Part shown: in pieces, positions 33,050 to 62,404 of the stretch
How positions within the stretch are numbered: position 1 is the first letter of the stretch
How the letters are laid out: every line of letters begins with the position of its first letter
Source of the DNA: Rhodamnia argentea
Taxonomy: Eukaryota; Streptophyta; Magnoliopsida; Myrtales; Myrtaceae
Assembly (NCBI RefSeq): GCF_020921035.1
Contig: NC_063154.1
Coordinates: 27,475,948 to 27,539,947, forward strand
Direction: 5' to 3'
Length of the DNA stretch: 64,000 bases
Translations under genes and position numbers: made by a program
Notes under the pieces: model-generated
Told to the model about the DNA's origin: nothing
Database searches by the model: none
What the model saw: only the letters and a program-made list of their open reading frames with translations

Positions 33050-33466
33050 CAAAATGTGCTAAACCCTTTTTTTTAATCAATTGAGTCCTAAATAATTTGT
33101 ATTTACGTCAATTCAATCCATTTGGCTTGCCGATGTCGACGTGGACAATTTTTAAAAATATTTTATTTATTTATTCCTTTTTTCCTTTTCTTTCTTTGTC
33201 TTTTTTTCCCATGTGGCCGGGGAGAACCGTCGGAGCCATTAGCCACAGGGGGCAAGGAAGAAAGAGAAAACATAGAAAGAAAAATAAAAGGAAAAAAAAA
33301 AAAAAAAAATCCAAAGTTATTCACGTCAGCTCGTCGGCCGGCCAAATGGATTGAATTGACATAAATGCAAAAGGTTTAAGATTCAATTGGCAAAAAAACA
33401 AAATAGGTTTAGGACTAAAATTGATATAATTATAATAAATTTAGGATTTTTTTCGATAATTTTCTT
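33050..33466. mobile_element. Fold-back element, family A, copy 2
   Basis: Arms match 13094-13628: left 'gagtcctaaataatttgtat' and 'tacgtcaattcaatcc'; right 'aattgacataaatgcaaaag' and 'aaatttaggatttttttcga'. The core has 'tgtcgacgtggacaattttt' and 'ttcacgtcagctcgtcggcc', as in the other copies. The left end looks worn. Confidence 0.6.
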
Positions 33467-35480: not shown

Positions 35481-35661
35481 CCCCTCTCCCTCTCTCTCTC
35501 TCTCTCTCCCCGCCCAAGTTGGCTCACGACCATTGAGATTGACCCTCACAGTCGCAGCCGTCAAGCTCCCACCTTGGCCTCTCTCAACCCCTCCGAGCTC
35601 GAACGACGTCCTTCTCTTCAATGTCTACACGGAGGCGGGGTCGCATTAGCTTCACTCCTCA

Positions 35662-37866
35662 ATGACCCTCTCTCTCAAAGCTTCAAAAGCTTTGGCCACG
35701 ACCCTCCCTGCTTCGCACCCCCACTATCTCAAGGTACGGTTGCTGTTCCCGCTCTGTTTATCTTTCCACAGCTGCTCACCATCGATTTCCGACGAGCCCA
35801 CGTCGGTTTCTGAATCTCTGTACCGAGACTTGATCTTGACTACGATAGCAAGAAAGCCCCGGGCTTTTGCGAACAAGAAGTGGGTGTCTGATGAGTTCCG
35901 GGAACTGGTTATTAACCCCGGGTTGCTCGTCCGGGTCCTGAGCTCGATTCGTGCAAAACCCAGGATCGCTTTGCGGTTGTTTAGATGGGTCGAGATGCAG
36001 GACGGTTTTATCCTGTCTGAGCACGCGTTCTGTGTGGTTCTTGAAATTTTGGCAGAGAACAATTTGATGCGGTCGGCTTACTGGGTTGTGGATAGGGCGG
36101 TGAGTCTCAACGTGGATGAGATTCTCGATGTTTTGATTGGTGGGGGAGTGCGGTTAGAGGTCTTGGGGAAGCTTCTCGATATTCTGCTGTGGGTGTACAC
36201 CAAGAAGTCCATGATTGGGCATTGTCTATCGACCTTTGATGAAATGGTACGGAGAGGGATCTTGCCGGACGTGAAGAATTGTAATAGGATTCTCCGGATT
36301 CTTAGAGATAAGAAGCTAGTAGTTAAAGCTCGTGTAATCTATAGGACGATGGAGGAGTTTGGCATAAAGCCGACCATTGTCACGTATAATACTTTGTTGG
36401 ATTCGTATTGCAAGGAAGGTGAAATGCAGCAGGCGCTGGAGCTCTTGGCGGAGATGCATAAGAGACAGTGCTTCCCGAATGATGTTACTTACAATGTGTT
36501 GATAAATGGGTTGTCCAAGAATGGGGAGCTAGACCAGGCCAAGGGACTGATTGAGAAGATGCTGAAGTTAGGATTAGAGGTCTCGGCACACACTTATAAT
36601 CCTTTAATTTCTGGGTATTGCAGTAAGGGATTGCTTGTTGAGGCTCTAGGTATTGAGGAGGAGATGGAAGTTAGAGGGGCATCTCCTACTGTGGCAACTT
36701 ACAATGCCATGATGTATGGCCTCTGTAAATGGGGGAAGATGGTTGATGCTAGACAACAACTCGCAGCGATGGTCAAGAGGAATTTGCATCCGGACGTGGT
36801 TTCTTACAACACTCTTATCTACGGCTATTGTAGATTGGGCAATATGAAAGAGGCCTTGCTCTTGTTTGAGAAGCTACAATATCATGATGCTGTTCCTACT
36901 ACAATCACTTACAATATCCTTATAGATGGCGCTTGCAGGAACGGCGACTTGGAGTTTGCTCAACACTTGAAAGATGAGATGATTAATCGAGGGATTCCTC
37001 CTGATGTTTATACTTACACCATCCTGGCTAATGCATCGTGTAAGTTGGGTGATTTATGTTTGGCCGAAAGCTTCTTCAGTGAAATGTTGCGCAAAGGATT
37101 GGAGCCTGATCGTGTCTCGTACTCAACTCGTATAGTTAGTCAGCTCAAGCTAGGTGATTGTGGTATGGCAGTTGGCCTGCAAGAAGAAATGCTGGCAAAG
37201 GGTTTCCCTCCTGATTTGATCACTTACAACATATTTGTGCATGGGCTTGCTAAATTAGGCAACCTAGAAGAAGCATGTGACTTATTGCAAAAGATGGTTC
37301 ACAATGGTTTTTTGCCGGATCATGTAACTTACACCAGTATAATCCATGCTTTCTCAGAAACGGGCGAGCTCGGAAAAGCAAGAAAGCTGTTTAAAGAGAT
37401 GCTGAGCAAAGGATTAGTACCTTCAGTTGTGACGTACACAGTGTTGATCCATGCCCATGCCGGCGAGGGTGGGCTACAGGGGCTACAAATGGCTGTTTCT
37501 TACTTCTTGGAGATGCAAGTGAAGAATATTACCCCTAATGTGATCACCTACAATGCTCTCATCAATGGTCATTGCAGAGCGAGGAAGATTGATCAGGCTT
37601 ACAAATATTTTGACTTAATGGAGAGGAGAGGTATCCTTCCTAACAAGTATACCTATACCATATTAATAAATGAAAACTGCAATAGAGAAAATTGGCAAAA
37701 AGCTCTGAGTTTATACATAGAAATGTTAAGGAGAGACGTGCAGCCTGATTTTGTCACCCACAGTGCTTTGATGAAGAAATTGAACCAAGACTACAAGCTG
37801 CATGCAGTTCAATTGCTGGAGGATCTGATTACAGATAGTGCAGAAGTTGCTTCTGCAATGACTTGA
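35662..37866 (+). CDS. P-class pentatricopeptide repeat protein, probably mitochondrial
   Basis: A single uninterrupted exon encodes 734 aa, as usual for plant PPR genes. The N-terminus (residues 1 to about 45) is rich in Ser/Leu/Ala with Lys/His and only two acidic residues, fitting an organelle transit peptide. From about residue 203 to 730 there are about 14 tandem 35-aa repeats of the plain P type (for example TIVTYNTLLDSYCKEGEM, DVVSYNTLIYGYCRLGNM, NVITYNALINGHCRARKI), with no E, DYW or SMR tail. One repeat near 590-630 carries a short insertion (GEGGLQGLQMAV). P-class proteins bind organelle RNA and aid processing, stability or translation; the target is unknown. The arrangement resembles Arabidopsis At1g22960 (from memory). 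The ATG at 35662 is the first in frame. Confidence 0.92.
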   Translation: MTLSLKASKALATTLPASHPHYLKVRLLFPLCLSFHSCSPSISDEPTSVSESLYRDLILTTIARKPRAFANKKWVSDEFRELVINPGLLVRVLSSIRAKPRIALRLFRWVEMQDGFILSEHAFCVVLEILAENNLMRSAYWVVDRAVSLNVDEILDVLIGGGVRLEVLGKLLDILLWVYTKKSMIGHCLSTFDEMVRRGILPDVKNCNRILRILRDKKLVVKARVIYRTMEEFGIKPTIVTYNTLLDSYCKEGEMQQALELLAEMHKRQCFPNDVTYNVLINGLSKNGELDQAKGLIEKMLKLGLEVSAHTYNPLISGYCSKGLLVEALGIEEEMEVRGASPTVATYNAMMYGLCKWGKMVDARQQLAAMVKRNLHPDVVSYNTLIYGYCRLGNMKEALLLFEKLQYHDAVPTTITYNILIDGACRNGDLEFAQHLKDEMINRGIPPDVYTYTILANASCKLGDLCLAESFFSEMLRKGLEPDRVSYSTRIVSQLKLGDCGMAVGLQEEMLAKGFPPDLITYNIFVHGLAKLGNLEEACDLLQKMVHNGFLPDHVTYTSIIHAFSETGELGKARKLFKEMLSKGLVPSVVTYTVLIHAHAGEGGLQGLQMAVSYFLEMQVKNITPNVITYNALINGHCRARKIDQAYKYFDLMERRGILPNKYTYTILINENCNRENWQKALSLYIEMLRRDVQPDFVTHSALMKKLNQDYKLHAVQLLEDLITDSAEVASAMT

Positions 37867-40800
37867 AGTTCTATGCAGCATCTTGAATCTGAAGGCCTTG
37901 TAAGCTGCAGATGTGCTAGTTCTTAAGCTTGCCACTTTGGTAAATTCAAAGTGGTTTCAACCACGCATGAATTCCCTGAACAGTTCCACAAGTAAGAGTT
38001 GCATTATCTTAGAGTTTGTCAGTTGCTTGTGGTGTATCTTTTGTTCTTTGCATTTACCATTCATTTTTAGCATTCACTAATATTACTATCCTGCTTAATT
38101 TCTTTCTGGTAATATGCTTTTCAGGTGGAACTTCTAGTACATCAAGGTCAGAGACTAAACCTGCTGGTGTGGTTATATATACAAGATTCTTTCCCCCTTT
38201 ATGGGCATAAATAATCTATACGTGACCAGATTTTGAAACTATCTTCCAGTCAGAGGCTAAAATAATGATATTGCGGCAATACTGAGCATGAAGTTGAGAT
38301 CCATAGCATAAAGATATTGTATTTTCCCAGGAGATCCTAAAGCTGTGAATAATACGATATTCAGAGATTTCTGTAATCTCTTCTTTTTGGTTGGTTCTCG
38401 GTGAAGAGCGAAGAAGTAGGATTTAGATAGCCAACACTTGCTAGTCGCATGGTTGAGCCATTCTGCTTCTTTGTATATTATACACATTTTTCTTGGAGAA
38501 TCAAAGTATCCATTTTCATTGGCCTCATTAAATTAATGTACTTTTCATTCTTTAACTAAATTTAAGCCTGAATTTGATATTTGGTGATGATTTAGCATCT
38601 TCTGCTTTACTAATTATACACCATTCTGTGTTGTCTTCCAGAGCAAATGTGACATAACTCAGAGACATTCTATGCAACAACACAGTCTTTAAAAGTAGTA
38701 AGTTAGGAAAGAACTTATTATAATCTTTTGTATGCACGTATTTTACAATGATTGGCATGTTTACAGATTATTGTACTTGTTTATTTATTTCCAAAGAAGT
38801 ACTTCAGTTTCTGATCTATGATAATTGATTCCTAGACAGTTTCTGACTATGGTAATTGGTTCCTAGCGTACAGTCCTTTTTGGTGGATCATAAATAATTG
38901 CAATTTTTTCTTGAGGTGTTAAAAACAATACTAAAGAGTGCATCGTTATGTATATACGTGACTTCCCTTCTGAAGCTGTTTTGTACAGGCCCTATAGGGC
39001 GGTACTCTCTTCTTGGACTTCTGTTTATCTTTCAGAAGGAAAGGAAAAAGAAAAGATAAAACATTATAGGTGACGAGATTGGAATATTTCTAATTAAATG
39101 GAGGATGCACAAAGTTATTGGACCAGTAGTAACTGCTAAGAATAAGCTGGGGAGATTGGGGAAGGGGCAAGGGTAAGGATTGTTGACAATCCTGACTTTA
39201 AAATATTGGAGACTTGTGCATAGTCACCCTGCTGGATTTAGTCCTTACATTCATCTAGTTTTGTTCAAACTATTGCAAACGACCTATCGTGTACTTTGTT
39301 TATGGCAATATCTGGATGATAAGAAGTTTTAGGATGGATGATGAACTCTACCCTACAGAATTCATTCTCGAGTAATGGATTGGTCAACCAAGACATCTGA
39401 AGATTTGATCAAGAATAGGAAGATCTTACAAATTCTAAAAAGTACAGGAAATATGGAAAGTGAGTTGAAATTGGATATTTTATGCTTTCGGTAACTGTTA
39501 AGATCAAAATTACAAAGAACTATGACCTTAACTGCCTGCATCATCTCTAAGTGCAACCATAACTGGGAATATGTTGTTTACCAAAAAATGAAAATATAAA
39601 AAAAAAAGTGGGAATGTATTATGTCATTCATCTTACACATGCTATTTATTTACCCCTAGCTTTTTTATATCTGTCAACAGATCACTTAATGTTCGTTGTC
39701 TTTTGCCCGTACATGGATAGTTTGCTCTTATGCTGATGATAAACCAATTTTCTATATTTAAGTGCTGAACTTAGTATATTTTGTTTTGTAATAGAGCTCT
39801 TTTAATGGGTTCTTGAAGTCTTTTTGCATATCAATTTGTTCCTTCTTGGTGCCCTATAGTGAAGTTACTTTTACCTATCAAAACTTTAGTAAAATGGTGA
39901 ACTTAGGTTCCAGATTTGTTTCTCTTGAGTGATGTTTTCATCCTTGATGACATTTATCTAAATAGTTCAACCGCTGACTCATCTTTGTCAAGCATTGTAT
40001 TGGAACCTAAGTTGTGCATGAAAAATGTATGTATTGCTGCAATATAGAAAGTCAGGGGACACCCAAATGAAACAGAATGCCTAATCCATCATCTTCTTGT
40101 GTTTATGCAAACTGAGTGAAAAGCTGGACTTTCACACGAGTTGCTTAATTACTAGGATCTTCCTGGTTACAAATAGGTGCACGGATGGACCTCGGATTAA
40201 TGACTTAATGAAGCAAGGTTTATAGTTATGAGAAATTTGTAACACATTGAGGGGCAAAATTAAGCCTTTTTAGTTCGATTTATTTTTATTTGTCTTGATT
40301 TAATTTTTTTACATTTGACATTGCTCTGTAACGTATAAGAAGCTCTCCTTTCATGTATTCAGTATGGGAAATTCCATGGTTTACTACTCTAGATTGGACA
40401 GCTTGTCATTCGTTTGCTTAATCATTCTATTTTTGAAGAATTTCCTATGAGTGTATAATCTTCTTCCAGTATATCTTAATGGAGGGTTGAGACTCTGGTC
40501 TCGGTGTTAATCTGGAGTTTTGTTTGATAGTAGAATCATGGTTGCTCCACATGTTATGTACAAGCCATGCCTTAGCATATGACTATGCCTTTCGTAGGGC
40601 CGTTCAGACATTTTCTTTCTCCATGGTATTTCCGCTGGAATTTTCTATTTCTTGTTGTTGTTGTTTCTTTACTTGTATTTATTTTTCAGTTTAGATTTTT
40701 CTCCACCGGTAGTTATAGTTATGGTTTGATGCTGTCAATACTATGGCTTTTGTTATGTTAATCTGACAATCGCCTCTATAAGAAATTATGGCAACAGAGC

Positions 40801-41160
40801 ATTCCGCTGCTGAGTATTCACACGACTAATTCTTAAGCATCCATACTTTGATTGTAAACGCTCCACGCCATTCAGTGAGGTTTTTATACACTAAAAACTC
40901 GATGTCAATCAGATCTCTCCTACTCTGGAATTCGTTCAGTAGCAGAATGGTTATCCTGTACAGCACTGTATGAGTTTCTTTTCCTTTTTGCATCCCCTAT
41001 AGCTCAAGATTCAATCTAAAGGGGGAACTTTGGGAGTTCACATTTATTCCTGTGTACACTAAATGACAAATTTTTGAATTCTCCATTTATTATGTGACTC
41101 ATAATCTATCTCATCATTGCAAACCAAGACTACTTAGCTCACCGCTGTGATATTTATGTT
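37867..41160. other. PPR 3' region and long intergenic stretch
   Basis: A possible 3'UTR intron ends at 'atatgcttttcag' near 38125. The rest, to 41160, has only short random reading frames, no clear inverted repeats and no RNA gene that I recognise. It reads like old unique intergenic DNA. Confidence 0.4.
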
Positions 41161-41204
41161 GGTGGTGTTTTCACAGCCAATCTAATGATAATCCTTATCA
41201 TTTA

Positions 41205-44200
41205 TCATCTGTCATCAGCTGCAGCAATGGACGATGTGGTTGCGAAAGACTCATCAGTGAGGGACCGCTCGACCGACACGTCCTCCTCGTCCTCGGAATC
41301 AACAGCCGCCTTCATTTTCTCAATCTCCTGTGCAATCTCCGCCATCTCAGGGCGCTTATCTGGCGACTTGTCACAACACCGGATTGCAATCTGCAGCAAC
41401 TGGAGCATCCCGTGGGCAGCACTTCTCTGCACTGATATCTCAGAGTCAAAGATCTCAGCAGTCCATTCCTCTCTCACTGCCCGGTGGACCCAGCTGCAGA
41501 GATCCACGCCTTTGACTCCTGGTGGGGCTGCATTGGCGCAGACTCGGCCACTGAGTAGTTCGATAAGCATGCAACCGTAGCTCCAGACGTCAGTGTTCGG
41601 GTAGATCCGTCGTGTAGTTTGGTATTCAGGGGATTTGAAGCAGACCATGGATTGCGCGGCGATGGGGAGCGCGATGAGAGAAGAGAGGCCGTAGTCAGAG
41701 ACAAGGATAATGTTGTTTTGATTGAGGAGGACATTGGTCGATTTGAGGTTCCCATGGGGAATGATGTTATTTGTTCTTGAGTTGGCGTGCAGGTGCTGTA
41801 GGGCTCGAGCCACACCTCGAGCAGCTGATAGTCTGGAGTTCCACCTGAATGGGACCCGTTCTTTGCTTCCCCTTCCACCTACAGTGATGGTTTTTACTAG
41901 ATGATAATCACAGCATGCACAAAGTGACACAAAGGAGCATATTTATGCACATTAATTGTTGGAACTTCTATATTTTTCTAATTCTTGGAGAGTGAGATTA
42001 TGACAATGTAAAAGAAAGAAATCTCGATCATGAAGAAGTCTTATTAAAATGAAAAGGGAATGGATAGTAATGGATGGAGTGAATCAGTGCGTAACCAACA
42101 TTCTCATTCCCAGATAGGAAGGCCTGGTTCGATTGGACTGGTTTGTTTCTTTTCTTCTTTTAATTATGACCTGACCAGTCAAGAATCCGTCAAGTGTGAT
42201 GTTGACCACTGTTGAACTGGTTGACCAAAACTTTGACTTTTCAAAAAGTTGAGAGTTGTTTGCAGTAACATGCCGTGACCTCTGGGATGTGCAATGAGCG
42301 TGTTGGCCATCTGAGCTAGGCACTCACTCTGGACACGGTGGCTAATGTAAATCTTTTACTACTGAACTGTGCAAGCCCGTGCACCAGCGATTCCATCTAG
42401 TTGGTGCATTTCCTACAGAAAAATGAGGACTTACTATTTCGTTTGTGTGTAACTTGCTTGCGTAATGATTTGATGTAGGGGGGTTTTCAGAAGTACTAGC
42501 TGAGAAAGAAGGCTTCATGCTTGCTAAAAATGGGGGATGGCCAAAAATAGCTGTTGAGACCAACTCAGAACTGGCGTTCAAGCTGCTTTAAAGGCCACAA
42601 CGTGGAACTGATTGGCAGCTGGAACCAGTGGTTACTGATATTTGATCTACAAAGCAGCTTTCAGCGGTAGGATTTGCTTGTTTTCCTTAAATTTTTTCAA
42701 TGTTTATAGACATTGCATGTTATAAGTATGTAATTAGGTTCCATAGCTCTACAAGCTAACTAGCTTTTTCTGACTTGGTATGCTGGGTTATACGGAATCT
42801 TGTTTACTTCCTCATGTTTCTAAGACAAATGACCGATAATTATAATGTTTAATGACTTGTCGCTGAATGAGTTGAGAAGGACATCCTAAGGCTAATACTC
42901 AGGTCGTGAATAGTGTTGTTCATGGTCGTTGATGTGCTTTCCTGTACACGAATAGATTTGGTTCGAAAGCCATAAGAGAGAGAAGGAACTCACCATGAAT
43001 GCGGTTGAACAAGTTGCCTTTCTCTGCATATCTGTAGATCAACAGCTTCTCTTGCTTAGAGAAGAAGTAGGCAAGAGGAGGAATCAGATTTGGGTGCTTC
43101 TGATTGGCGAGCAACTGCAATTGCCTCGTGAACTCCTCGCTGGTCATCGGCTTCAGATCCCTCATTCTCTTCACCACAAGGGCCTTCCCGTTATCCAAGA
43201 TTGCCTTGTAAGTGTTGCCGAAGATGCCTTTCCCAAGTCCCTCGGCAGATGCTTTCAAAAGATCACTCAATTCAAACCCTCCACCGTTTTCCAAGAATAT
43301 AAGCTTCCCTCTATCTTCTCCTCTCTCAACAACTGTACCGCTCTCGACCGCCTCGCTTTTGTCTTCTTTCTTGTCCTCTGCTTCTACAGCTCGCCGATTC
43401 TGTTGGGTCACAATATTTTTGAGCTCCTTGGCCTTCTTGTTGTACAAGATTAACAGCAAGATCACAGCAAGTAGAGCCACCACGGCGAACAGCAGAAAAA
43501 GAAAAGCATAGCCAGAAATGGAAGACTGTTTGCTTTTTTTAGTATCATTATCTGCAGTTCCAGAAGGATTGGAAGATGATGGGCCATCGCTCACCGAGTC
43601 GTGGACGCTGGAGTTATTACAGGAATTATGTGTGGGCGATCCGCATAGTCCCAGGTTGCCCGAGAATGAATCCAAGCTGAATGATTGAACAACTTGCGTC
43701 AATGGGATTTGCCCACCTAGATTGTTGTTTGACACATTAAAGTAGATCAAGGTAGGTTGATTGAACTCCGGTATTTTCCCTGACAAGTTGTTGTTCTGGA
43801 GCTTCAATGATGCTAGTAAAGCTAGACTCAGGAGCGACTCCGAGATTGGACCATGGAACTTGTTCCCCGAGAGGTCGATTTGGGCCAACTTCTGATTTCC
43901 TGAAAAATTCATTATATTGCCCAAAAGTGCATTGTTCTTGAAGCTCAGGATGGACAGCTCGGAGAAGTGAATGAGGGCATCGGAATTGACTACCCCCTTC
44001 AGCCCCATACCTTCCAGTGCTATAACTGTGACACGGCCATTGTTGCACTGAATTCCGTACCATCTCGGCGGGTCGTCCATATAGCAATGTATGCCCCTCC
44101 AGTTACTGTTCAAGAGAGAGTTGTTGAAAGCAGCTCTCAGAACATAAAGAGCCTCTCTCTCGTCTCCATCGTAACCTAGCGGCAGAGCACTACTTGCAGT

Positions 44201-44281
44201 GATCCTGTGGTTTAGCAGCAAGATGAGTGAGGTTAGGAAGAATTTTCCAAGCGACATCGAAGAGCGCATTATGCTGAACAT
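41205..44281 (-). CDS. LRR receptor-like pseudokinase (LRR-III type), copy A
   Basis: Exons 44281-42994 and 41878-41205 give 1962 nt, or 653 aa. An in-frame ATG 12 codons upstream (44317) exists; I chose 44281 because the paralogue starts with the same MF-I-M context. Features: signal peptide (about 1-30), an LRR N-cap with WYGIQC, four to five short LRRs (LSILSFKNNAL, LAQIDLSGNKF, LASLKLQNNNLSGKIP, LIYFNVSNNNLGGQIP), a Ser-rich stalk, a transmembrane helix at about 258-281, then a kinase domain. The Gly loop GKGIFGNTYKA and Lys (VVK, about 371) are present. The catalytic loop reads HGNLKSTN instead of HRD, with no catalytic Asp; the DFG site is SDYG and APE is SPE. It is therefore probably an inactive or atypical kinase, like many LRR-III members (pollen receptor-like kinases belong to this subfamily). 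Ligand unknown. Confidence 0.85.
41940..42580. other. Extra intron segment present only in copy A
   Basis: The kinase intron is about 1115 bases in copy A and about 450 in copy B. The two align at both ends ('gtgacacaaaggagcat' / 'gtgtcacaaactagcat', and the 'ggccac..cgtggaactgattgg' region), but about 640 bases here have no partner. This is either an insertion in A or a deletion in B; no clear terminal repeats are seen. Confidence 0.5.
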
Positions 44282-45094
44282 GAGAAGGTGGAGGTGCGTT
44301 TCTGGGGAATTCAGCATTGGCGATAGTGTAGTAGAAATTGCTTATAGATATGCTCGGATGCTCGATGAAATCACGGATATACTCCTAGGTGAAACCATGC
44401 CACAGCTATTAGGTGGCTTTTTTTGAAGATGGAACCAAGACAGTCTGGTTGCATCTGTACTGGACACTTCTGAGCCGAACCTTCCTAGACAGGCTGTCGT
44501 CGCATTGTACCTCATTGAAACTGCTAAAACTTACAGGATATTCCCCCTGTTATTGACCACCTAATGATTATTTACTACCTATTTGTCATCACCATCCTTG
44601 TTGCAGAATCCAGTTTGTCTGTGGAGTGAACTGTTTGTTTTTTCTGGGTTTAATATTGGTGCAATCTGGTTTTCGCAAATTGGCGAAAGATTTCCTTGAT
44701 TATATCTACTTCTTTTTGTGTTTCTAAAAAGCAGAAAAGAAACAATATTTTGGTAATGTCTTTGCTTTGACTGTGTAACCGTAAGTATAAAGTTGCAACG
44801 TCCATTTGTTGATGGATAGTCCTGTATTTTGAATTTGGTAATTTGAATGCTTTTATGGTTTCAATTACTGGTCATTACCCACTTCGATAAACTCTATCCG
44901 AAAAATCGTCCTTCTTCATTCCATTCGATTAAAAGTATCAAAATTTGACATTCTCGTAGGATATTCTTCAATCACTCTATGGATCACAGTCTCTCGGACA
45001 ACATAAGAGGCTGAAATCTGCCAAAGTAGTCAATTTTTTCCCCAAAGTCCGATTTTTTTTTTTGGTCGGACCCCAAGTCCAACCTATCTACTAG

Positions 45095-46350
45095 TACAAC
45101 CATTCGATTCATTCAAGTCCAAATTCTTTGCAATGCAAGAGTCCAGCCTCAAACTAAAAGATCAAAGTGGCCAACATAAGAATCCCGGGCATGCTTGATA
45201 TCGGCCAGCTGCAACCTCTTCAACTTCTCAACCTCTGGAGTGTAGACCCCGTCCCTGTTTATCCTGCTGAGGTAGAGTGCGTCGAAGAACTTGCCTCATG
45301 GGTAGCCCTAATCACCCGTGGCATTGGCTAATTCTTGGCAGTCTTTGACCTGGTTTGGCTCACTCCACTGACTGTGAGTCTGGGTTGATGAAAGTCGACG
45401 CACCACTTGCTCTTAACCCACCCAATCTTTGGGTGTGGTGCATACTCCTCATTGAAAGGAGGGCATGTGGGTCTTGCTTCCAGGATGGAGTCCGGAGGGC
45501 CACCCGACGAGAGGTGCAGGGGATAGTGCGCCCAGGCTGTCAGAGAGCTTTTATAGTTTTGGTCCGTATTTTGTTTGTAGATTGGGCTTGGACTCATGAA
45601 TAATTGTTATATCTTGCATATATTATCCATTTCTCTTGTAATGGTGAGATGTAACAGAGGTGGGGGTACTAATTATAATGTCATCGTCTGTCGGATGTAG
45701 CCTCATTTAAGGGTGAATCGGGATAAACCATGTATCTCGTTCTCTTTATCGCATTTGCTCTCTATTTTCTTGTATTCGTGTGCCTAATCCTAAATCCCAT
45801 GAGGATGAGTTGAGTCCCGAAGGAGAATGGGGCGGTTGTGCCAGGAGTGGCCCAGGCCTCGAATCAAGGGATGCTACTCCAGGCCTAGCCCACGAAGATG
45901 CCGACCACGACTGGCCCACCGGCTGTGGATGAGCTTGACCTCTCGGTACCACTTGAGGAATGCCTGGTCCTGCGAAGCCTGAGTGGGTCAAATGTAAAAT
46001 CACCTGGGAGCCTGCATTTTGTTATTCCATATCTCAGGAGTTGGGAAGGAGATAGTCCACAAATTGGAAGTGAAAAGCAAAACTATGAACAAGCTTGGAG
46101 AACGACAAAACTTACATAATACACATCCTTATCATCATTCACTCTGTTTTCTGTCAGCGGCACAAATTGGCTTTTTCAATCTCATGGCACATAATTACTT
46201 CAGGGATAAGTGCACCAAAAGTTCAGAACTTGTTGGGAAGGTGTAATTGAATCTTAAAACTTTCAAAAAGGGAAATAAATTCATTCCGCAAATTTATGAG
46301 CCATCTGGGGTTGATGAAGTCACCATCGCCCTTCACATGCACCGGGTATC
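45095..46350 (-). pseudogene. Degenerate LHCB6 copy, copy A
   Basis: Antisense to the plus strand, 45095-46010 follows LHCB6 exon 2 of copy B almost throughout, and about 46300-46350 follows the end of exon 1 (gagcc..ggggttgatgaagt). It is dead. In the GYPGG region the Gly codon has become TGA at 45296-45298. The adjacent ENFAN region has lost one base and gained TAG. About 370 bases are inserted at 45425-45797. The transit-peptide end of exon 1 is missing beyond about 46350. The intron gap (about 46010-46300) is longer than in the live gene. Confidence 0.85.
45425..45797 (+). mobile_element. Insertion in the LHCB6 pseudogene, likely solo LTR fragment (copia-like)
   Basis: These bases interrupt LHCB6 homology exactly between 'aacccaccc' and 'cccatgaggatgag', which are adjacent in the intact gene. 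The 3' part ('gggtgaatcgggataaacca', 'ttcttgtattcgtgtgccta') resembles the R/U5 end of plant Ty1-copia LTRs, where 'gggtgaaccgggataaa' is common. Clear terminal TG/CA ends and a target duplication were not established. Confidence 0.45.
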
Positions 46351-46598
46351 GGTTATGGAGAATGTTAATTATCTTGCTTAAAGAGCAAAACTGAAAAGAG
46401 GAGCACAGCAGAAGGATATCCAGTTATTTTGAGCAAACCAACCCATGACAGATACTGATCTTGTGAACTCCATGTCGTCTTTGTTTTCGTGCGTTAATGT
46501 TGTTTGGACACAGTTCAAAGAAAATTCAATGACGTGAAACAATATGATCTGTTTTCACAGCCAACCTAAGAGAAGTCCTCATCATTTATCAACTGTCA

Positions 46599-48949
46599 TC
46601 ACCAGAAGCTCTGGACAATGCCGTCTGGCGACGTGACAAAGTTGTCCTTGCAATCGCCTGCCACCTTTATATTCTCAACCACCTGCGCTATCTCCACCAT
46701 TTTGGGACGCTTATCAGGTGACTGGTCACAGCACCGCATCGCTATCTACAGCAGCTCGACCATCCCGTCGGCTAACCTTCTCTCCTTCCTGATCTCGGAG
46801 TAGAAGATCTTGGCTGTCCATTCCTCCCTCACTGCCCGGTGAACCCAGCTGCAGAGATCCACGCCATTGACTCCTGGCGGGGCTGCATTGGCGCAGACTC
46901 GCCCAGTGAGTAGTTCGAGAAGTAGGCAACCGTAGGTCCAGACATCGGTCTTCAGGCTGATCAGTCCCACGGTTCAGTATTCAGGGGATTTGAAGCAAAC
47001 TGCAGATTTCACGGCAGTGGGGACCAAGACGAGAGAGTAGAGGCCATAGTTAGAGACAAGGACCGTGTCGTCTTGATTGACGAGGACATTGGTCGATTTC
47101 AGGTTCCTGTGTGGGACAACGTTCGGTCTTAAGTTGGAGTTGATGTGGAGGTAGTGTAGGCCACGAGCCACGCCTTGAGCGGCTGATAGTCTGGAGTTCC
47201 ACCTGAACGGCACCCGCTCCTTGGTTCCCCTTCCTCCTGTGGTGGTGGTTTTCATCAGATGACAATTACATTATGCACAAAGTGTCACAAACTAGCATGC
47301 AGCTTTCAAGGCCACGGCATGGAACTGATTGGAGGCTGGAACTGCGTTTACTGATATCTGATCTACCCAGCAGCTTTCAATGGTAGGATTTGCTTGCTTT
47401 CGTTGTTTACAGTGTTCTAGGAATTACATATTTTAAGTATGTGATTTGTTTTCATAGCTCTAATAGTTAGGTGGTTCTTTCAACTGGGTATGCTGGGTTC
47501 TTCCTCATGTTTCTGAGACAAATACCAAAGTAATAGAATGTCTAATGACTTGTCATTGAATGAGCAGAAAGGGAAATCCTAAGGCTAATATCCTGGTCCT
47601 GGTGAAATTCCTGGTCATTGATGTGCTTTCCTGGACACAGATAGATTTGGTTTGATTGCCATAAGAGAGATGGAGAGAGCTTGCCATGAATGCGGTCGAA
47701 CAAGTTGCCTTTCTCTGCGTATCTGCAGATCAACAGCTTCCGTTTGCTTCGATAAGAAGCAGGTGAGTGGAGGGTTCAGATTCGGGTGCTTCTGATTGGT
47801 GAGTAGCTGCAATTGCCTTGTGAACTCCTTGCCGGTCATCGGTTTCAGATCCCTCAAGATCTTCACCACGAGGGCCTGCCTGTCATCCAAGGTCGCCTTG
47901 TAGGTGTTCCCGAAGATGCTTTTCCCAATTTCCTCCGGAGATGCCTTCAGAAGATCAGTCATTTCGAACTCTTCACCGTTTTCCAAGAATACAAGCTTCC
48001 CTCTATCTTCTTTCCTCTCTGCGGCTCTGCCACTCTCAACCGCCTCGCTTTTCTCTTTTTTCTCGTCTGCTGCTTCTTCTTCTCTGTTATTCTCTTGGTT
48101 CATGAATTGTTTGTGCTTCTTGGCCTTCTTATAGCACAAGATACAGAGCGAGGACCCGGCAAGTAGAGCCACCACGCTGAACAGCAGAGAGAGAATGTGA
48201 AAGCCAGATTTGGAAGGATTCTTGGTTTTTTTGGCATCATTAACTGCACTTGCAGAAGGATTGGAAGATGACGGGCTTGAGTTATCACAGGAGTTATGCG
48301 AGGGCGGTCTGCATAGTCCCGGGTTGCCCAAGTATGACTCCCAGCCGAATAATTGGAAACGTTGCGTCGATGGGATTGGCCCGCTTATATGGTTGTTTGA
48401 CACATTGAAGGAGATCAAGGTAGATTGTTTGAACTCCAGGATTTCCCCTGTTAAGTTGTTGTTCTGGAGCTGCAATGATGCTAGTAGACCTAGACTCAGG
48501 AGCGACTCCGATATTGGACCGTGGAGTTTGTTCCCTGAGAGGTCGATTCGGGCCAACTTCTGGTTTCCTGAAAAGTTCATTATTCTCCCTTGAAGAGCAT
48601 TGTTCTTGAAGCTCAGGATGGACAGCTCAGAGAAGTGCACGAAGGCGTCGAAACTGATCATCCCCTTCAGCTCCAAACCTTCCAGTACTATTCCTGTGAC
48701 CTGGCCATTGTTGCACAGAATACCGTACCATCTCGGCGGATCATCCATATAACAATGTATGCTAGTCCAGTTATTGTTCAAGAAAGGGTCATTGAAAGCG
48801 TCCCTCAGAGCATAAAGAGCGTCTCTCTCGCCTCCATCGTAACCTAGTGAAGGAGCACTACTTCCGGCAATCCTATCGTTCAGCAACGAGATGGATAAAA
48901 CTAAAACTAATTTCCTGAGCAACTTTGAACAACCCATTATGCCGAACAT
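46599..48949 (-). pseudogene. Degenerate LRR receptor-like kinase, copy B
   Basis: This is the paralogue of the 41205-44281 gene. Exon 1 (48949 to 47685) keeps signal peptide, LRRs, membrane segment and Gly loop. One extra base near 47738-47746 shifts the frame, so that SKQ is followed by TEAVDLQ instead of KLLIYRYAEKGN; the true frame resumes as ICRYAEKGNLFDRIHG. The donor after CATG is gc (47684-47683) instead of gt. Exon 2 from 47236 carries HRNLKSTN and SNYG (the DFG Asp is lost). A TGA at 46974-46976 follows SPEY, and a TAG at 46746-46748 replaces a Gln codon; homology continues through both to a TGA at 46599-46601. A truncated product ending in the juxtamembrane/N-lobe could still be made from exon 1. 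Confidence 0.85.
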
Positions 48950-49712
48950 CAGAAGGCGGACGTGTTTGGTTCTGTGGGAATTTGGCGACTATCGTAGTGT
49001 AGTCAAAATTGCTTATAGATGCTCGGATGCTCAATGGAACCGTGGATATCCTCCTAGTTGACATCATGCCACAGCTATATTAGATGTCTTTGTCTGAAAA
49101 TGGATCCAAGACTCCTTTTCTGTTCCATCTGCATTGGAACTTCTCAGCTGAAAATTCCATGGCAGGTTGCTTCCACATTGTCCTTCATTGACCTGCTTCT
49201 GTCTCATGGAACGTTCCCTCAGTTTTGACCACCAATGATTGTTTACTACCTCTTTTCCATCACCATCCTTGTTGCAGAATCCAGTTTGTCTAGGGCTAGG
49301 ATGGTTCATCTTTCTGGGTTGATATCATCAATCAAGCAACTTCAGTCCGGCGCACTCTGATTTTCGCCCATTCGCAAAAGATTTCCTCGAAAATGTACTT
49401 TGGTCTTTGTAATTAGTGAAAACAGAAACAAGATTCTAGTAATGTCTTAGCTTTGGATATGTGACTATGAGTATGAAGATTGCAATGCCCTTTACTAAAA
49501 TTTTCTCGATCGCGATTTATCATACGATAAACTCTTCTTACAAACACATCACTAGTTCCTAGCAATGAATCCGGGATGGAATACTAGGCCGGGGACACGA
49601 TTTCTTGTCCAACATTGGAGGCTCGAATTTGACTAAGCTTTCAATTTTTGTCCCCCCAAATCCAATTTATCTACAAGTACAACCATTCTTGATTCATTCA
49701 AGTTCAAACTCT

Positions 49713-50626
49713 CTACAATCCAAGAGCCCCAAGAGGGGTCTTGCCCTGCCCAGCCTCAAAGTAAAAGATCAACATGGCCAACATAGCAATCCGGGCGTGC
49801 TTGATCTCGGCCAGCTTCAACCTCTCCAGCTTCTCGACGTCCGGGATGTAGACCCCGTCCTTGATTGTCCCGGCGAGGCCGAGCGGGTCGAAGAACTTGC
49901 CTCCCGGGTAGCCCTGATCGCCTGTGGCGTTGGCGAAGTTCTCGGCGGTCCTAGACCAGGGCGTGGCCCACTCCACCGACTGCGAGTCCGGGTTGAAGAA
50001 GTCGACCCACCGCTTGCTCTCGACCCACCCCATGAGGATGAGCTGAGTCCCGAGGAGGGTGCCGAAGGAGAACGGGGCGATGGCGCCAGGGTCGGCCCCG
50101 GCCTCGAACCATGGGATGCCGCTCCAGGCCTGGCCCGCAAAGATGCCGACCACTGCGACCATGGCCCACCGGCCGTGGATGAGCTCGGCCTCTCGATACC
50201 ACCTGAGGAATGCCGGGTCCTTGCCAAGCCCGAGTGGGTCGAACCCGTAATCACCTGGTAGCCTGCGGTCGATTTATTTTTTCCAAAGTACGAATGTTAG
50301 GCCAAAAACCGTACTCTGAATTATCTAAGAACTAATCTAGGAACTTGTCCTGAACATAAAACACCATCCCTCTCGAGACAAGTACGTGGGGACACTTACG
50401 AGCCGTCGAGCCACTCGGGGTCGATGAAGTTACCGCCGCCCCTGACGCCGGGGACCCAAGACTTCTTGGGCTGAGCCGCCGCGACAACCACCAAGTTCCT
50501 AGAACCGGCGCCGCTCCCCGCCTTGGCCCCGAAGCCGACCGCGCTCAGCAAGGACCGGCTCCGCCTCCCCCCGCACAAGAAGGCCGACCCCAACCCGTTC
50601 ACCACCGCGCCGGAAGTCGCCGCCAT
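49713..50626 (-). CDS. LHCB6: Light-harvesting chlorophyll a/b protein CP24
   Basis: Exons 50626-50400 and 50262-49713 give 777 nt, or 258 aa, the length of Arabidopsis LHCB6. CP24 is a monomeric antenna of photosystem II in the thylakoid; it bridges the inner complex and the M-trimer with CP29. Residues 1 to about 50 are a Ser/Gly/Ala-rich plastid transit peptide. The mature part begins near [20 protein letters not shown]. Helix B motif [12 protein letters not shown] (99-110) carries the Glu and His chlorophyll ligands. [20 protein letters not shown] and [15 protein letters not shown] are LHCB6-typical. The last helix has EIKHARIAM (228-236), and the tail is [12 protein letters not shown]. 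An upstream in-frame ATG (50677) is in the CT-rich leader and unlikely to be used. The intron is 137 bases. Confidence 0.97.
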
Positions 50627-50959: not shown

Positions 50960-51546
50960 GGGGAAAATTATAAATTTTTTTTCTAAATTTATTATACTTT
51001 AATCAATTCAATCTTAAATTATTTAATTTTTTCAATTTAGTCCTAAACATTTTACATTTATACTAATTGAGTCATAAACTCTTTTTTATTTGTGTCAACT
51101 CAATCCATCCGATCAATTTTTAGCGGCCGACGATGACATGAGCGTTGGCGATGACATTGATAATTTTTAACAATAGTTTAAGAATTTTTGAATTCTTCCT
51201 TTTTTTTTTCTTTTCTTCGGGACCTGCTAGAGGTAGAAGAAAGAAAGAAAGAAAAATAAAAAGAGAAAGAAAATAAAAAAAATAGAAAAATGAAAAATAA
51301 TTCAAAAATGTATCAATATATTATCAAAAGATTATCCACGTCAGCGACCGGTGTCCACGTCATCATCGGCTAGCCAAAGTTGGCACAAATGCAAGAGGTT
51401 TAGAACTGAATTGGCAAAAAAAAAAAGTTTAGAACTAAATTGGTACAAATGTAAAATGTTTAGGATTGAATTGACCAAATTAAAAGGTTTAGAATTGAAT
51501 TAGCAAAAATGCAATACATTTAGGGCTTACTTTTGATAATTTTCCC
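50960..51546. mobile_element. Fold-back element, family A, copy 3
   Basis: The left arm 'ggggaaaattataaattttt' ... 'tagtcctaaacattttacat' is inverted at the right end as 'gcaatacatttagggcttac' ... 'tttgataattttcccta'. The core contains 'gacgatgacatgagcg' and 'atccacgtcagcgaccgg'. This is the clearest copy of the family. Confidence 0.7.
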
Positions 51547-53608: not shown

Positions 53609-54183
53609 TAGGGTGCGCATGATAACATTTCTCTTCGAGAAATCAACTTTTGATCAGAAGTTGATTTCTCTACTTTTTCTCAAAAGTAGAAGTTGATTTT
53701 TCTACTTCTACTCCATATTAACCTTCGATAAGAAAAATTCGTTTGGTAATGGTTGAAAATTTCTACTTTTGAAACATTATTAATAAAAGGACAAAGACAA
53801 CAAGCGGTTGGCGGCGGTCGTTGGGCGGTGGCGGTTGGTGGTCGGCGATGGTCGGCGGCAGAGGTGGCGGTTGGCGGCGGTGGGTGGGCGGTGGTCGCGG
53901 CGGCTGTGGTCGGCGGGCGACGGTCATAGCAACGGTGGTCGACAGAGGCGAGTATGGTCCAAGAAGTGATTTTGGAGCCGAGAAGTTAAAATTTTTTACT
54001 TCTCAAAATTGACCAAAAATCCTATCAGAAGTGAAATTTTTTACCATAAGTGAAAAATCATATCATAAGTCAATTTTTTTACTAAATAGATTTCTACTTC
54101 GATCGGATTTTTATCAAACGCATTTCTCTGTCGGATGGGCTCCGTGCAGAGAAATGAAATTTCTAAAGTGATTTCATGCGGGC
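53609..54183. mobile_element. MITE, family E, copy 2, nested
   Basis: Ends 'gggtgcgcatgataacattt' and 'gtgatttcatgcgggccc' are inverted relative to each other and match copy 1 at 52015. The element is flanked on both sides by TTA, fitting the 3-bp TTA/TAA target duplication of PIF/Harbinger-type MITEs. The interior has the same 'agaagttgattt' words plus a GGCGG-rich tract at 53805-53945. Confidence 0.7.
53805..53945. repeat. GGCGGT-rich tract
   Basis: Irregular repeats of ggcggtng / ggtcggcg lie inside the nested MITE, strongly G-biased on the plus strand. A comparable tract lies inside the MITE at 57328-57955 (57540-57700). Confidence 0.6.
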
Positions 54184-55458
54184 CCTTAAAGATTAAAGTA
54201 CCTATTCTTTGGCGCGTCCCTCCTCTCCCCGCCGATCGGCTTCTTCTTCTTTGGCGGGTGGGGGATAGATGACGGGCAGCGGAATTCTGCACTCCTCGTG
54301 CTTGGGCGTCTCGCAACCTTCCTCCTCTAAAAACAGAGGACTTCACTGCGGTGACGAAGAATAACAAGATTTTAAAAACGCAGCTCGAAATCTTCGGGGG
54401 AGGTGCGGCTTCTGCGAATTGAATCGTGGACTGATGGTGGGTGATGGGTGACAGCTAAGTGGAGCTTCCGGATGGCTGACATGGTAGGGCGAAGACTTGG
54501 CCCGTGTTGCCTTTGCGCCTTCATCGCCATTCTCAGGTCGTTCCTACGAGAGTCGATGAAATGCGGGAGCGAGAGACAGAGATGTCGAGGATAGATAGAA
54601 GCGAGATTTGTGAATTGCGAGAGGAGAGGGAAGGAGGGAGATGAGCGTCATCGATCGGCACCGCTGATATAGAAGTTAAGCATGTATCTGTGGTGGTTGG
54701 GAGAGAGAATGTTTGTCGGTCGCCAGATTGGGCGAGAGCGGTGAGGGCTCCCTCGTCGGTGGCCACAAGGCCGGCCCTCGCACTTGCCGGGCGAGGCGAG
54801 ACCTCGCGGTCGCCCGTGAGGCCAGCCCTCGCCTGTGGCCGGTGAGGCGCCTAACCCACGGTAGCCGGCAAGGAGAAGAGAAAATAAGGAAAAAGGAAAA
54901 AAAAAGGAAATAAACCAGAAAATGTAAAAAGATCAAAATATCTCCGATCAAACCCTTATTTGAAACAAAGAGGATATTTTAGGTTCTTATTTAAAATAAA
55001 GTTCACTTGAAGCCTTTAATCGAGAAAATGAGGGCACTTAGGGTTCTTTTTTGAAATTTTCCCAAAAAAAACTAGACAAAAGGAAATAATAACTATTTTC
55101 TTTTTCTCAACCAACCCACGAGGTCTCAAAATTAAATTCTGAATACATGGAGGGGGGGGTTAGAGCAGTTTATTGCAAAAAGAGTGGGGTCCAAGTAATT
55201 AGTAATTTGAGCAACCGAAGGGGTGCCGAAGTAATTAATGAAAATGCGCGGGGGTGCCTTTGTAATTTGATCAAAATTCGAGGGAGGCCAGAGTAATTCA
55301 TTCAGAAAAATTCATTTTGGTCGTTCGGATTGGGTTAAGAGAGAAGGCACCGGCAGGCTCGCATGGACCCTCAAGAGGGGCCATGGCCGTTGCATTGTTG
55401 CTGTGCTGGGCCCCTTCGATTTAGTAGCCTGGACCATAACACATTCTAAATGACCCGA

Positions 55459-55908
55459 GAAACCAAACTTTCGGCTCGACCAATCTCCATCGATGCACTT
55501 AAATCGTTCCGGTCCACATTCATTAATCACATTAAGTCGATCGATCGAGATCAAATGCTTGACCACGCAATCAACCCCCCTCAGGGATCAAACTTTATTT
55601 AGCCGGTCCTTGACCAAATCCAATACCCTCTAACTTCTTCGATCGTGATTCCGAGCTCGTTTTTACCCAAAACCCTCACCAACCCCAGGAAACCAAACTT
55701 TCAGCTCGACCAATCTCCATCGATGCACGTAAATTGTTCCGGTCCACATTCATTAATCACATTAAGTCGATCGATCGAGATCAAATGCTTGACCACGCAA
55801 TCGACCCCCCTCGGGGATCAAACTTTGTTTAGCCCGTCCTTGACCAAATCCAATACCCTCTAATTTCTTCGATCGTGATTCCGAGATCGTTTTTACCCTA
55901 AATCCCTT
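55459..55908. repeat. 230-bp tandem duplication
   Basis: The segment from 'gaaaccaaactttcggctcg' (55459) through 'cgtttttaccc' recurs 230 bases later (55689 onward) with few differences. A third, shorter and more diverged copy lies at about 56393-56480 ('gaccataacac', 'ctcggctcgaccaatt'). No protein is recognised in any frame. Confidence 0.85.
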
Positions 55909-60963: not shown

Positions 60964-60985
60964 ATCATCTCTACTCTGAGTACTG

Positions 60986-62404
60986 ATGGGGGCTATTCTG
61001 AGCTTGAATGGTTCCAGATGCAGAGCGAGGGAGACCTATGAGATTGCGCCGGGTGAGATTTGCAAGAGGCAGAAGGTGTCATCAAGCTCGTTCGAGGATG
61101 ATACGAGGTTGATACCCTGCCTTCCGGACGAGATATCATTTCAGATTCTGGCCAGACTTCCTAGAACCTGCTATTTGAAAGTAAAGTCAGTGTCACGATC
61201 TTGGAAAAATGCGATTACAAGTGCTGAACTCTTCAGTTTGAGGAAGGAGCTCGGAACATCTGAGGAATGGCTCTATATTTTGACCAAAGTGGATGAGGAT
61301 AAGCTTTTGTGGCATGCTTTGGATCCTTCGTCAATGAGATGGCAAAGATTGCCCCCAATGCCTATGGTTTCGTTTGAAGATGAATCGAGGAAAGGCCTTG
61401 GGAGCTTACGCATGTGGAACGTTATGGGTTCAAGTATTAGAATTGCAGATGTCATCAGGGGCTGGCTCGGGAGAAAAGACGGACTAGATCGGATGGCTTT
61501 TTGTGGATGTGCAGTTGGGGCTGTTAATGGATGCCTCTATGTGATCGGTGGCTTTTCTAGAGCCTCGGCCTTGACTAGCGTTTGGCGATATGATCCCACT
61601 CTAAATACGTGGAGTGAAGCAAGTCCCATGTCCATTGGTAGAGCTTATTGTAAGACAGGCATATTGAACAATAAGCTTTATGTTGTTGGTGGGGTCACTC
61701 GTGGTCGTGGTGGTTTGACCCCACTTCAATCAGCAGAAGTGTATGACCCCCTCACTGGTTTATGGTCCCAAATACCCAGCATGCCTTTTGCCAAAGCTCA
61801 GGTGCTTCCTACTGCATTCCTTGCTGATCTACTTAAGCCTATTGCCACTGGAATGACTTCATACAGGGGAAGGTTGCTGGTGCCTCAAAGTTTGTACTGC
61901 TGGCCTTTCTTTGTAGATGTCGGAGGAGAAGTATATGATCCTGAGATGAATTCATGGGTCGAAATGCCGACCGGCATGGGCGAGGGTTGGCCTGCAAGGC
62001 AGGCAGGCACGAAATTGAGTGTCACTGTAGAAGGGGAGTTGTATTCGTTGGATCCTTCTAGTTCTCTTGATAGTGCTAAGATCAAGGTATATGATCAACA
62101 AGATGATGCTTGGAAAGTCATTGCGGAAGAAGTTCCTATTCGCGACTTTGCTGATTCAGAGTCTCCCTATTTACTTGCTAGCTTACTGGGCAAGCTTCAT
62201 GTTATCACTAGAGATGCAAATAACAATATATCGGTTATGCAAGCAGATGTCCAGAACAATCTCAACCCCTTTCCAATGGTTTCATCATCTTTAGCAGAAG
62301 ATTCTGTCTTCAAGGTGCAATCAGAAAGAAATCTTTGGAAGGTCATAGCCACTAAGTGTGCGGGATCTGCAGAGCTTGTAAGCTGTCTGGCCCTTGACAT
62401 TTGA
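60986..62404 (+). CDS. F-box/kelch-repeat protein
   Basis: A single coding exon encodes 472 aa. The F-box spans about residues 42-88 (LPDEISFQILARLPR, then VKSVSRSWKNAI), the part that binds the ASK/SKP1 subunit of an SCF ubiquitin ligase. Kelch motifs follow: about 175-225 (NGCLYVIGGFSRASALTSVW, YDPTLNTWSEASPM) and about 230-275 (NKLYVVGGVTRGRGGLTPLQ, VYDPLTGLWSQIPSMP). A less regular blade region lies to about 345 (GEVYDPEMNSWVEMPTG). These form a beta-propeller that should recruit the substrate, which is unknown. Length and layout match Arabidopsis At1g22040 (from memory). The ATG at 60986 is the first in frame and the conserved start (MGAILSL). Confidence 0.93.
   Translation: MGAILSLNGSRCRARETYEIAPGEICKRQKVSSSSFEDDTRLIPCLPDEISFQILARLPRTCYLKVKSVSRSWKNAITSAELFSLRKELGTSEEWLYILTKVDEDKLLWHALDPSSMRWQRLPPMPMVSFEDESRKGLGSLRMWNVMGSSIRIADVIRGWLGRKDGLDRMAFCGCAVGAVNGCLYVIGGFSRASALTSVWRYDPTLNTWSEASPMSIGRAYCKTGILNNKLYVVGGVTRGRGGLTPLQSAEVYDPLTGLWSQIPSMPFAKAQVLPTAFLADLLKPIATGMTSYRGRLLVPQSLYCWPFFVDVGGEVYDPEMNSWVEMPTGMGEGWPARQAGTKLSVTVEGELYSLDPSSSLDSAKIKVYDQQDDAWKVIAEEVPIRDFADSESPYLLASLLGKLHVITRDANNNISVMQADVQNNLNPFPMVSSSLAEDSVFKVQSERNLWKVIATKCAGSAELVSCLALDI

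Follow-up and report, generated by a model that had tools for sequence, protein, structure and literature searches.

The window examined here is a stretch of 64,000 nucleotides of the Rhodamnia argentea genome (C5:27475948-27539947), and it carries two tandem units, A on the left and B on the right, each of which joins a receptor-like kinase gene to a gene for the antenna protein LHCB6. One open copy of each gene is left, namely the kinase of unit A (kinase-A) and the LHCB6 gene of unit B (LHCB6-B), and the other two copies (LHCB6-A and kinase-B) are broken. We consider it moderately probable that this arrangement goes back to an incomplete tandem duplication with one near-immediate and one delayed pseudogenisation. 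A segment of ~4-5 kb would have been duplicated in tandem, the right edge of the duplication falling inside LHCB6 exon 1 and the left edge just past the kinase stop codon. The left LHCB6 copy would thus have been without promoter, start codon and transit peptide and may have decayed neutrally from the start, gaining a dispersed repeat at some time. The right kinase copy would have been nearly complete, with its 5' flank included and its 3' flank cut ~38 bp past the stop codon; it was probably constrained for most of the time, and a frameshift and two nonsense codons would have disabled it at a late stage. An order of loss in which LHCB6-A went first and kinase-B later is suggested with fair confidence.

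The tandem block and its surviving genes

Self-BLAST of the window gave a single same-strand chain of direct repeats in six pieces, 79-89% identical by piece: 41166-41217 with 46550-46601 (88.7%), 41289-41940 with 46644-47298 (79.2%), 42579-44620 with 47296-49291 (78.8%, E=0.0), 45071-45134 with 49654-49719 (84.8%), 45143-45423 with 49750-50030 (81.6%) and 45814-46015 with 50059-50266 (82.8%). A reading made from the letters alone (hereafter the sequence-only reading) had proposed that a two-gene block was duplicated in tandem and had expected a diagonal at an offset of about 5.4 kb, and both proposals are borne out by this chain. The offset is 5.38 kb at the left end and falls to 4.25 kb at the right, since two stretches of unit A, one of ~640 bp in the kinase intron and one of ~370 bp within LHCB6, are without counterpart in unit B. 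By the limits of detectable homology, unit A extends over 41166-46336 and unit B over 46550-50446, LHCB6-B itself running further right into the start of its own exon 1 and its upstream region. These are the edges as they can be detected at present; we infer that they are also the original breakpoints.

All four genes are located on the minus strand, and the order and orientation of kinase and LHCB6 are unchanged after the duplication, spacing alone having increased. Intergenic and kinase 5' sequences are recognisable in both units, and the noncoding distance between A and B amounts to 0.235 and 0.281 in the two longer stretches. It is the two outer genes that survive, and both retain the native flank on their outer side; the inner two are dead and lie on either side of a seam. 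The earlier description of a complete pair drawn from different copies, with two dead genes in between, therefore stands, and the survivors are complementary. An assembly error is an unlikely source of the copies or the lesions, and as an explanation of either it deserves hardly any credence: the copies are ~20% apart, which is not expected of haplotype duplicates, and both stops of kinase-B as well as the stop in the GYPGG motif of LHCB6-A arose by substitution.

Kinase-A consists of two exons (44269-42994 and 41878-41204) with a GT-AG intron and 649 open codons, in agreement with the earlier claim that copy A kept the receptor pseudokinase. Its first exon is open and encodes a signal peptide-like start, leucine-rich repeats (LRRs), a transmembrane-like segment and the N-lobe of a kinase domain; the second encodes the C-lobe and is open to the stop at 41204. 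Pfam kinase models match the product with E ~6e-29, and phmmer matches it to LRR receptor kinase chains of known structure. None of the Pfam LRR models reached E 0.001 for kinase-A, this level being reached for kinase-B only. HRD is the catalytic-loop motif of active kinases, and DFG is the usual form of the later motif. The translation of kinase-A has HGN in place of HRD, so that the catalytic-loop aspartate is missing, and DYG in place of DFG. With a kinase domain, an LRR ectodomain and a missing catalytic aspartate, kinase-A is confidently predicted to be an LRR receptor-like pseudokinase.

Searches of the genome (346.7 Mb in 74 contigs) pass over very common words, and single-match results therefore do not prove uniqueness. 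Within this scope no third close kinase copy was found, as identities outside the two units stayed at 47% or below, with 41% for the match that ranks next by E-value (68 of 2336 genome candidates scored). The left flank of the block (40566-41165) returned only itself. So did the ~640-bp stretch of the kinase-A intron (41941-42578), and it may therefore equally have been inserted in A or deleted from B.

LHCB6-B comprises exon 1 (50626-50400), which begins with an ATG and includes the transit-peptide region, and exon 2 (50262-49712), which is intact to the stop. The exons are joined by a GT-AG intron, and with both intact and 258 codons open, the claim that copy B kept LHCB6 is confirmed. The chlorophyll a/b-binding domain PF00504 matches the product with E=1.8e-43. 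Among solved chains the four closest (8z9d, 5xnl, 7oui and 5mdx) align 209-254 of the 258 residues with E from 2.6e-141 to 7.9e-129, two of the four being named CP24, and the next antenna proteins follow at 3e-55 or worse; the closest chain, itself named CP24, aligns over residues 3-256. By domain and closest match alike, LHCB6-B is predicted with confidence to be LHCB6/CP24, a minor antenna of photosystem II, from which no difference was seen.

The genome search also revealed a second intact LHCB6 gene at C11:18225904-18226806 (~5402-6309 of a 9.9-kb neighbourhood), with 94% identity in exon 2 and 66% in exon 1. As the synonymous distance (dS) between LHCB6-B and the C11 gene is 1.4-1.8 and that between LHCB6-A and LHCB6-B is 0.39, the C11 gene can serve as an outgroup to the tandem pair. 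A segmental duplication shared with C11 was considered and rejected, the distance to C11 being far above that of the tandem copies. The 9.9 kb around the C11 gene contain no kinase match. A second stretch of the window, 53610-54186, resembles positions 4372-4904 of the C11 neighbourhood, the best pieces reaching 85-88% identity. Relative to LHCB6 the two stretches are oppositely oriented, and synteny with C11 is therefore not established; translation of the similar stretch in two frames yielded no Pfam match.

The dead LHCB6 copy and the seam

Of the 165 aligned codons in the exon 2 remnant of LHCB6-A (45130-46009, minus strand), six are in-frame stops, beside 159 sense codons; the remnant also shows several indels of 1, 5 and 25 bp. 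Seven frameshifting indels were counted by hand from the alignment, leaving out a 2-bp gap at the exon 2 start and a 5-base gap at the edge of an insertion. This insertion (45424-45793, ~370 bp) is a member of a dispersed repeat that is found at 40 places including itself, the 39 other scored places being 69-81% alike (40 of 438 genome candidates scored). In 14 of the 19 members examined the match ends at the same base (45793), and a search within 1.5 kb of these 19 for four short retroelement protein motifs and for one primer-site pattern detected none of them. The insertion may be a solo long terminal repeat. A 4-bp CCCA target duplication at its ends is possible, although one base does not fit.

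The loss of LHCB6-A had been attributed to a TGA in GYPGG, a one-base deletion, the 370-bp insertion and a missing end of exon 1. All of this can be retained except the last item, because exon 1 has kept its end and lacks its start. Only ~39 bp at the end of the exon (46298-46336), reading GDGDFINPRWL, are recognisable. They align to LHCB6-B exon 1 with a score of 42 that was matched by 0 of 500 shuffles when this exon alone was the target; with a 734-bp target of exon plus promoter, 1 in 200 shuffles of a simpler kind did as well. Against C11 exon 1 the score was 34, equalled by 1 of 500 shuffles. No start codon, transit peptide or promoter was recognisable upstream of the remnant. Similarity between the introns of LHCB6-A and LHCB6-B is weak, its score being reached by 11 of 300 shuffles.

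The substitution pattern of LHCB6-A is that of a sequence without codon constraint. With C11 as outgroup, 503 sites of exon 2 assign 67 changes to LHCB6-A (28/18/21 by codon position), 13 to LHCB6-B (1/3/9) and 64 to C11 (11/2/51), with 13 sites differing in all three. The LHCB6-A counts do not depart from uniformity (p=0.31), and in the ratio of positions 1 and 2 to position 3 they differ from those of C11 (p=7e-8) and of LHCB6-B (p=0.02). At 0.133 of sites (uncorrected), the LHCB6-A share comes close to half the noncoding distance (0.118 and 0.141 for the two stretches). Because the codon positions are hit evenly and the share is of this size, LHCB6-A appears to have evolved neutrally for about as long as it has existed. 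It probably died at the duplication or shortly afterwards. As its homology stops inside exon 1, it was probably never copied whole.

Homology between the kinases ends 38 bp past the stop codon and that of LHCB6-A ends at the exon 1 remnant, which leaves a seam of 213 bp (46337-46549) between the units. The seam found only itself in the genome, and neither there nor in the rest of the window has it a significant relative. Comparison with LHCB6-B exon 1 and its upstream region gave nothing significant (143 of 200 shuffles as high), and the same holds for the 5' region of the C11 gene (183 of 200).

It could be argued that the seam is filler left at a later deletion. In this case the whole block would have been duplicated together with the LHCB6 promoter, both pairs would have worked for some time, the 5' end of LHCB6-A would have been deleted separately and kinase-B would have been pseudogenised, which amounts to a true reciprocal loss. 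The intergenic and kinase 5' sequences that both units share are in keeping with it. Such a history has a small though not trivial chance of being correct, since it needs an extra event, no constrained phase is visible on the LHCB6-A branch (28/18/21), and the share of changes on this branch already corresponds to about half of the noncoding distance. Of the reciprocal gene loss that the sequence-only reading had described, we retain the duplication of the block, the fact that the survivors complement each other and the death of both inner genes; two complete copies at the outset are less probable, as LHCB6-A lacks its 5' end at the seam and shows no codon constraint.

A probable delayed loss of the right kinase copy

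Kinase-B exon 1 (47685-48937, minus strand) is open from the ATG, with an in-frame 24-bp gap against kinase-A, up to a 1-bp insertion near 47742, close to the end of the exon. The exon 2 pseudogene (46610-47236) carries a TGA at codon 512 (~46974-46976), a TAG at codon 588 (~46746-46748) and a gap in the C-terminal tail. The gc donor had been listed as a fourth lesion beside the frameshift, TGA and TAG. The latter three are upheld; the donor is a legitimate splice class and no lesion in itself, because GC-AG, according to our reading of the alignment, splices the exons together in the same phase as in kinase-A. Read as it stands and spliced, kinase-B has a frame of 479 codons, and its 5' flank is 76.6% identical to that of kinase-A.

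For a gene of its age kinase-B has accumulated few lesions. There are 0 stops in the 415 aligned codons of exon 1, and the neutral expectation is 4.5 in 425 codons at a divergence of K=0.12 (P=0.008; 0.019 at K=0.10 and 0.046 at K=0.08). Indels number at most five in ~1.88 kb, a length for which noncoding DNA would predict 16.6 (P=0.0009); the yardstick is 14 indels in 794 bp over both branches, and all differences between the kinases are charged to B. LHCB6-A, by comparison, has nine indels in 549 bp (p=0.001), and stops and frameshifts together amount to 5 per 648 codons in kinase-B and 13 per 183 in LHCB6-A (p=8e-6). Because the stops and indels are so few for its age, kinase-B was probably constrained for most of its life and died late; rough estimates put the dead share of its life at 9 to 28%.

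This scarcity of lesions is also what makes it unlikely that the two inner genes were defective from the outset, LHCB6-A by lack of its 5' end and kinase-B by lack of its native 3' flank, and have decayed neutrally since. The end of homology just 38 bp past the kinase stop speaks in favour of such a double loss and a kinase w (the ratio dN/dS) of ~0.63 permits it, but under neutrality both the stops (P=0.008 at K=0.12) and the indels (P=0.0009) would be too few. The w in question is the YN00 estimate (dS 0.319, nonsynonymous distance dN 0.202); NG86 gave dS 0.416, dN 0.181 and w 0.44, codons touching gaps and stop codons being excluded from the rates.

It can also be speculated that kinase-B is still alive as a truncated receptor of 479 codons, with LRR ectodomain, membrane span, partial N-lobe and shifted tail, and that it acts as a decoy or as a co-receptor fragment or partner for kinase-A. 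The open exon 1 and its 479-codon frame, the in-phase GC-AG intron and the similar 5' flank would all suit a young, still expressed form; if this were true, the kinase of the unit would not be lost but split into a full and a short form. We regard this as very improbable, as conservation of the ectodomain does not exceed that of the broken exon 2 (w 0.48 against 0.43) and kinase-B departs at sites conserved among the paralogs that cover them (P167L in 12 of 12, G210R in 11 of 12 and G348S in 16 of 16). Its open part matches LRR models, and it has no Pfam kinase match at E 0.001.

Several observations weigh against an incomplete duplication with a late loss of kinase-B. The kinase dN is ~0.7 of the noncoding distance, and a neutral B together with a moderately constrained A would fit; a neutral kinase-B is compatible with the YN00 values, and substitution rates alone therefore do not settle its late death. 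No domain of kinase-B is clearly better kept, with w 0.48 in the ectodomain, 0.39 in the rest of exon 1 and 0.43 in exon 2 and with overlapping intervals. Distant paralogs at 16 loci, agreeing at 60% or more, provided 31 sites at which the kinases differ; the consensus is matched by A at 16, by B at 7 and by neither at 8 (one-sided p=0.047), which is a weak test. Indels were counted manually on the alignments, and lesions close to one another are possibly not independent. LHCB6-A has six stops where neutral simulation at K=0.133 yields 2.4 (P=0.028), an excess by which LHCB6-A as a yardstick exaggerates the contrast with kinase-B. Against the left flank of the kinase (5 kb, both strands) the seam reached a score of 37, with 5 of 60 shuffles as high, which is weak but not nil. 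The 213 bp of the seam would also suit an LHCB6 copy that was complete at first and whose 5' end was deleted later, with filler left in its place.

The locus had further been called dateable, and this is justified in relative terms only, by the kinase dS of 0.32-0.42 and the noncoding distance of 0.24-0.28.

Neighbouring features and comparison with known systems

Elsewhere in the window, a 738-codon open frame at 35650-37863 contains many pentatricopeptide (PPR) repeats (PF13041, E 1.1e-160), and a 474-codon open frame at 60980-62401 has F-box and kelch motifs. At 55459-55907 a 230-bp unit occurs about twice in tandem, the copies being 94% alike. Related short repeats occupy 33068-33448 and 51005-51514, where they form mutually similar inverted pairs at 33.07-33.40 and 51.0-51.5 kb, and tandem copies are found within the latter region at 51380-51514. 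Rfam and tRNA scans of the window gave no matches.

Most members of LRR receptor-like kinase subfamily III lack the catalytic-loop aspartate and are classed as pseudokinases, with 5-7 LRRs (PMC12277581). Kinase-A resembles them in its HGN and absent aspartate, shows nothing distinctive and is, on these motifs, a candidate member of the subfamily. As to the antenna genes, a table for Eucalyptus grandis contains 17 Lhca/b genes (PMC9820578), and a few Lhcb tandem duplications are reported in Rosaceae (PMC10566169). Our search of a paper library found no article joining LHCB6 with pseudogenes and tandem duplication, nor one joining LHCB6 with Myrtaceae. No functional change is implied by the losses, because the genes are ordinary and LHCB6 has an intact paralog, the second gene on C11.

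In plants, tandem pseudogenes are reported to exceed functional loci in all species of one study but grapevine, and no clear tie to fragmented types was found there (PMC7935947). The two dead genes share with duplicated, non-processed pseudogenes as treated there the retained introns and flanks, the disabling mutations and the tandem origin, as can be seen in the intron of kinase-B, the split exons of LHCB6-A and the stops and frameshifts of both. LHCB6-A looks fragment-like and would in this respect be less typical, and here two different genes of one block were hit. The event is an ordinary route to plant pseudogenes, well preserved, in which the likely order of loss can be read from one genome. 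It may be that the position of a duplication edge, rather than chance, decides which neighbouring gene copies survive, and one dead copy may be usable as a rough clock for the other.

Among known processes the locus comes nearest to tandem duplication-random loss (PMC5569537), to which, judged from the sequence, it bears a likeness in that a gene block was duplicated in tandem and one copy of each redundant gene was lost. That process was described for mitochondrial gene orders, whereas the present case is nuclear and gene order is unchanged; the loss of LHCB6-A, moreover, coincides with the edge of the repeat and looks hardly random.

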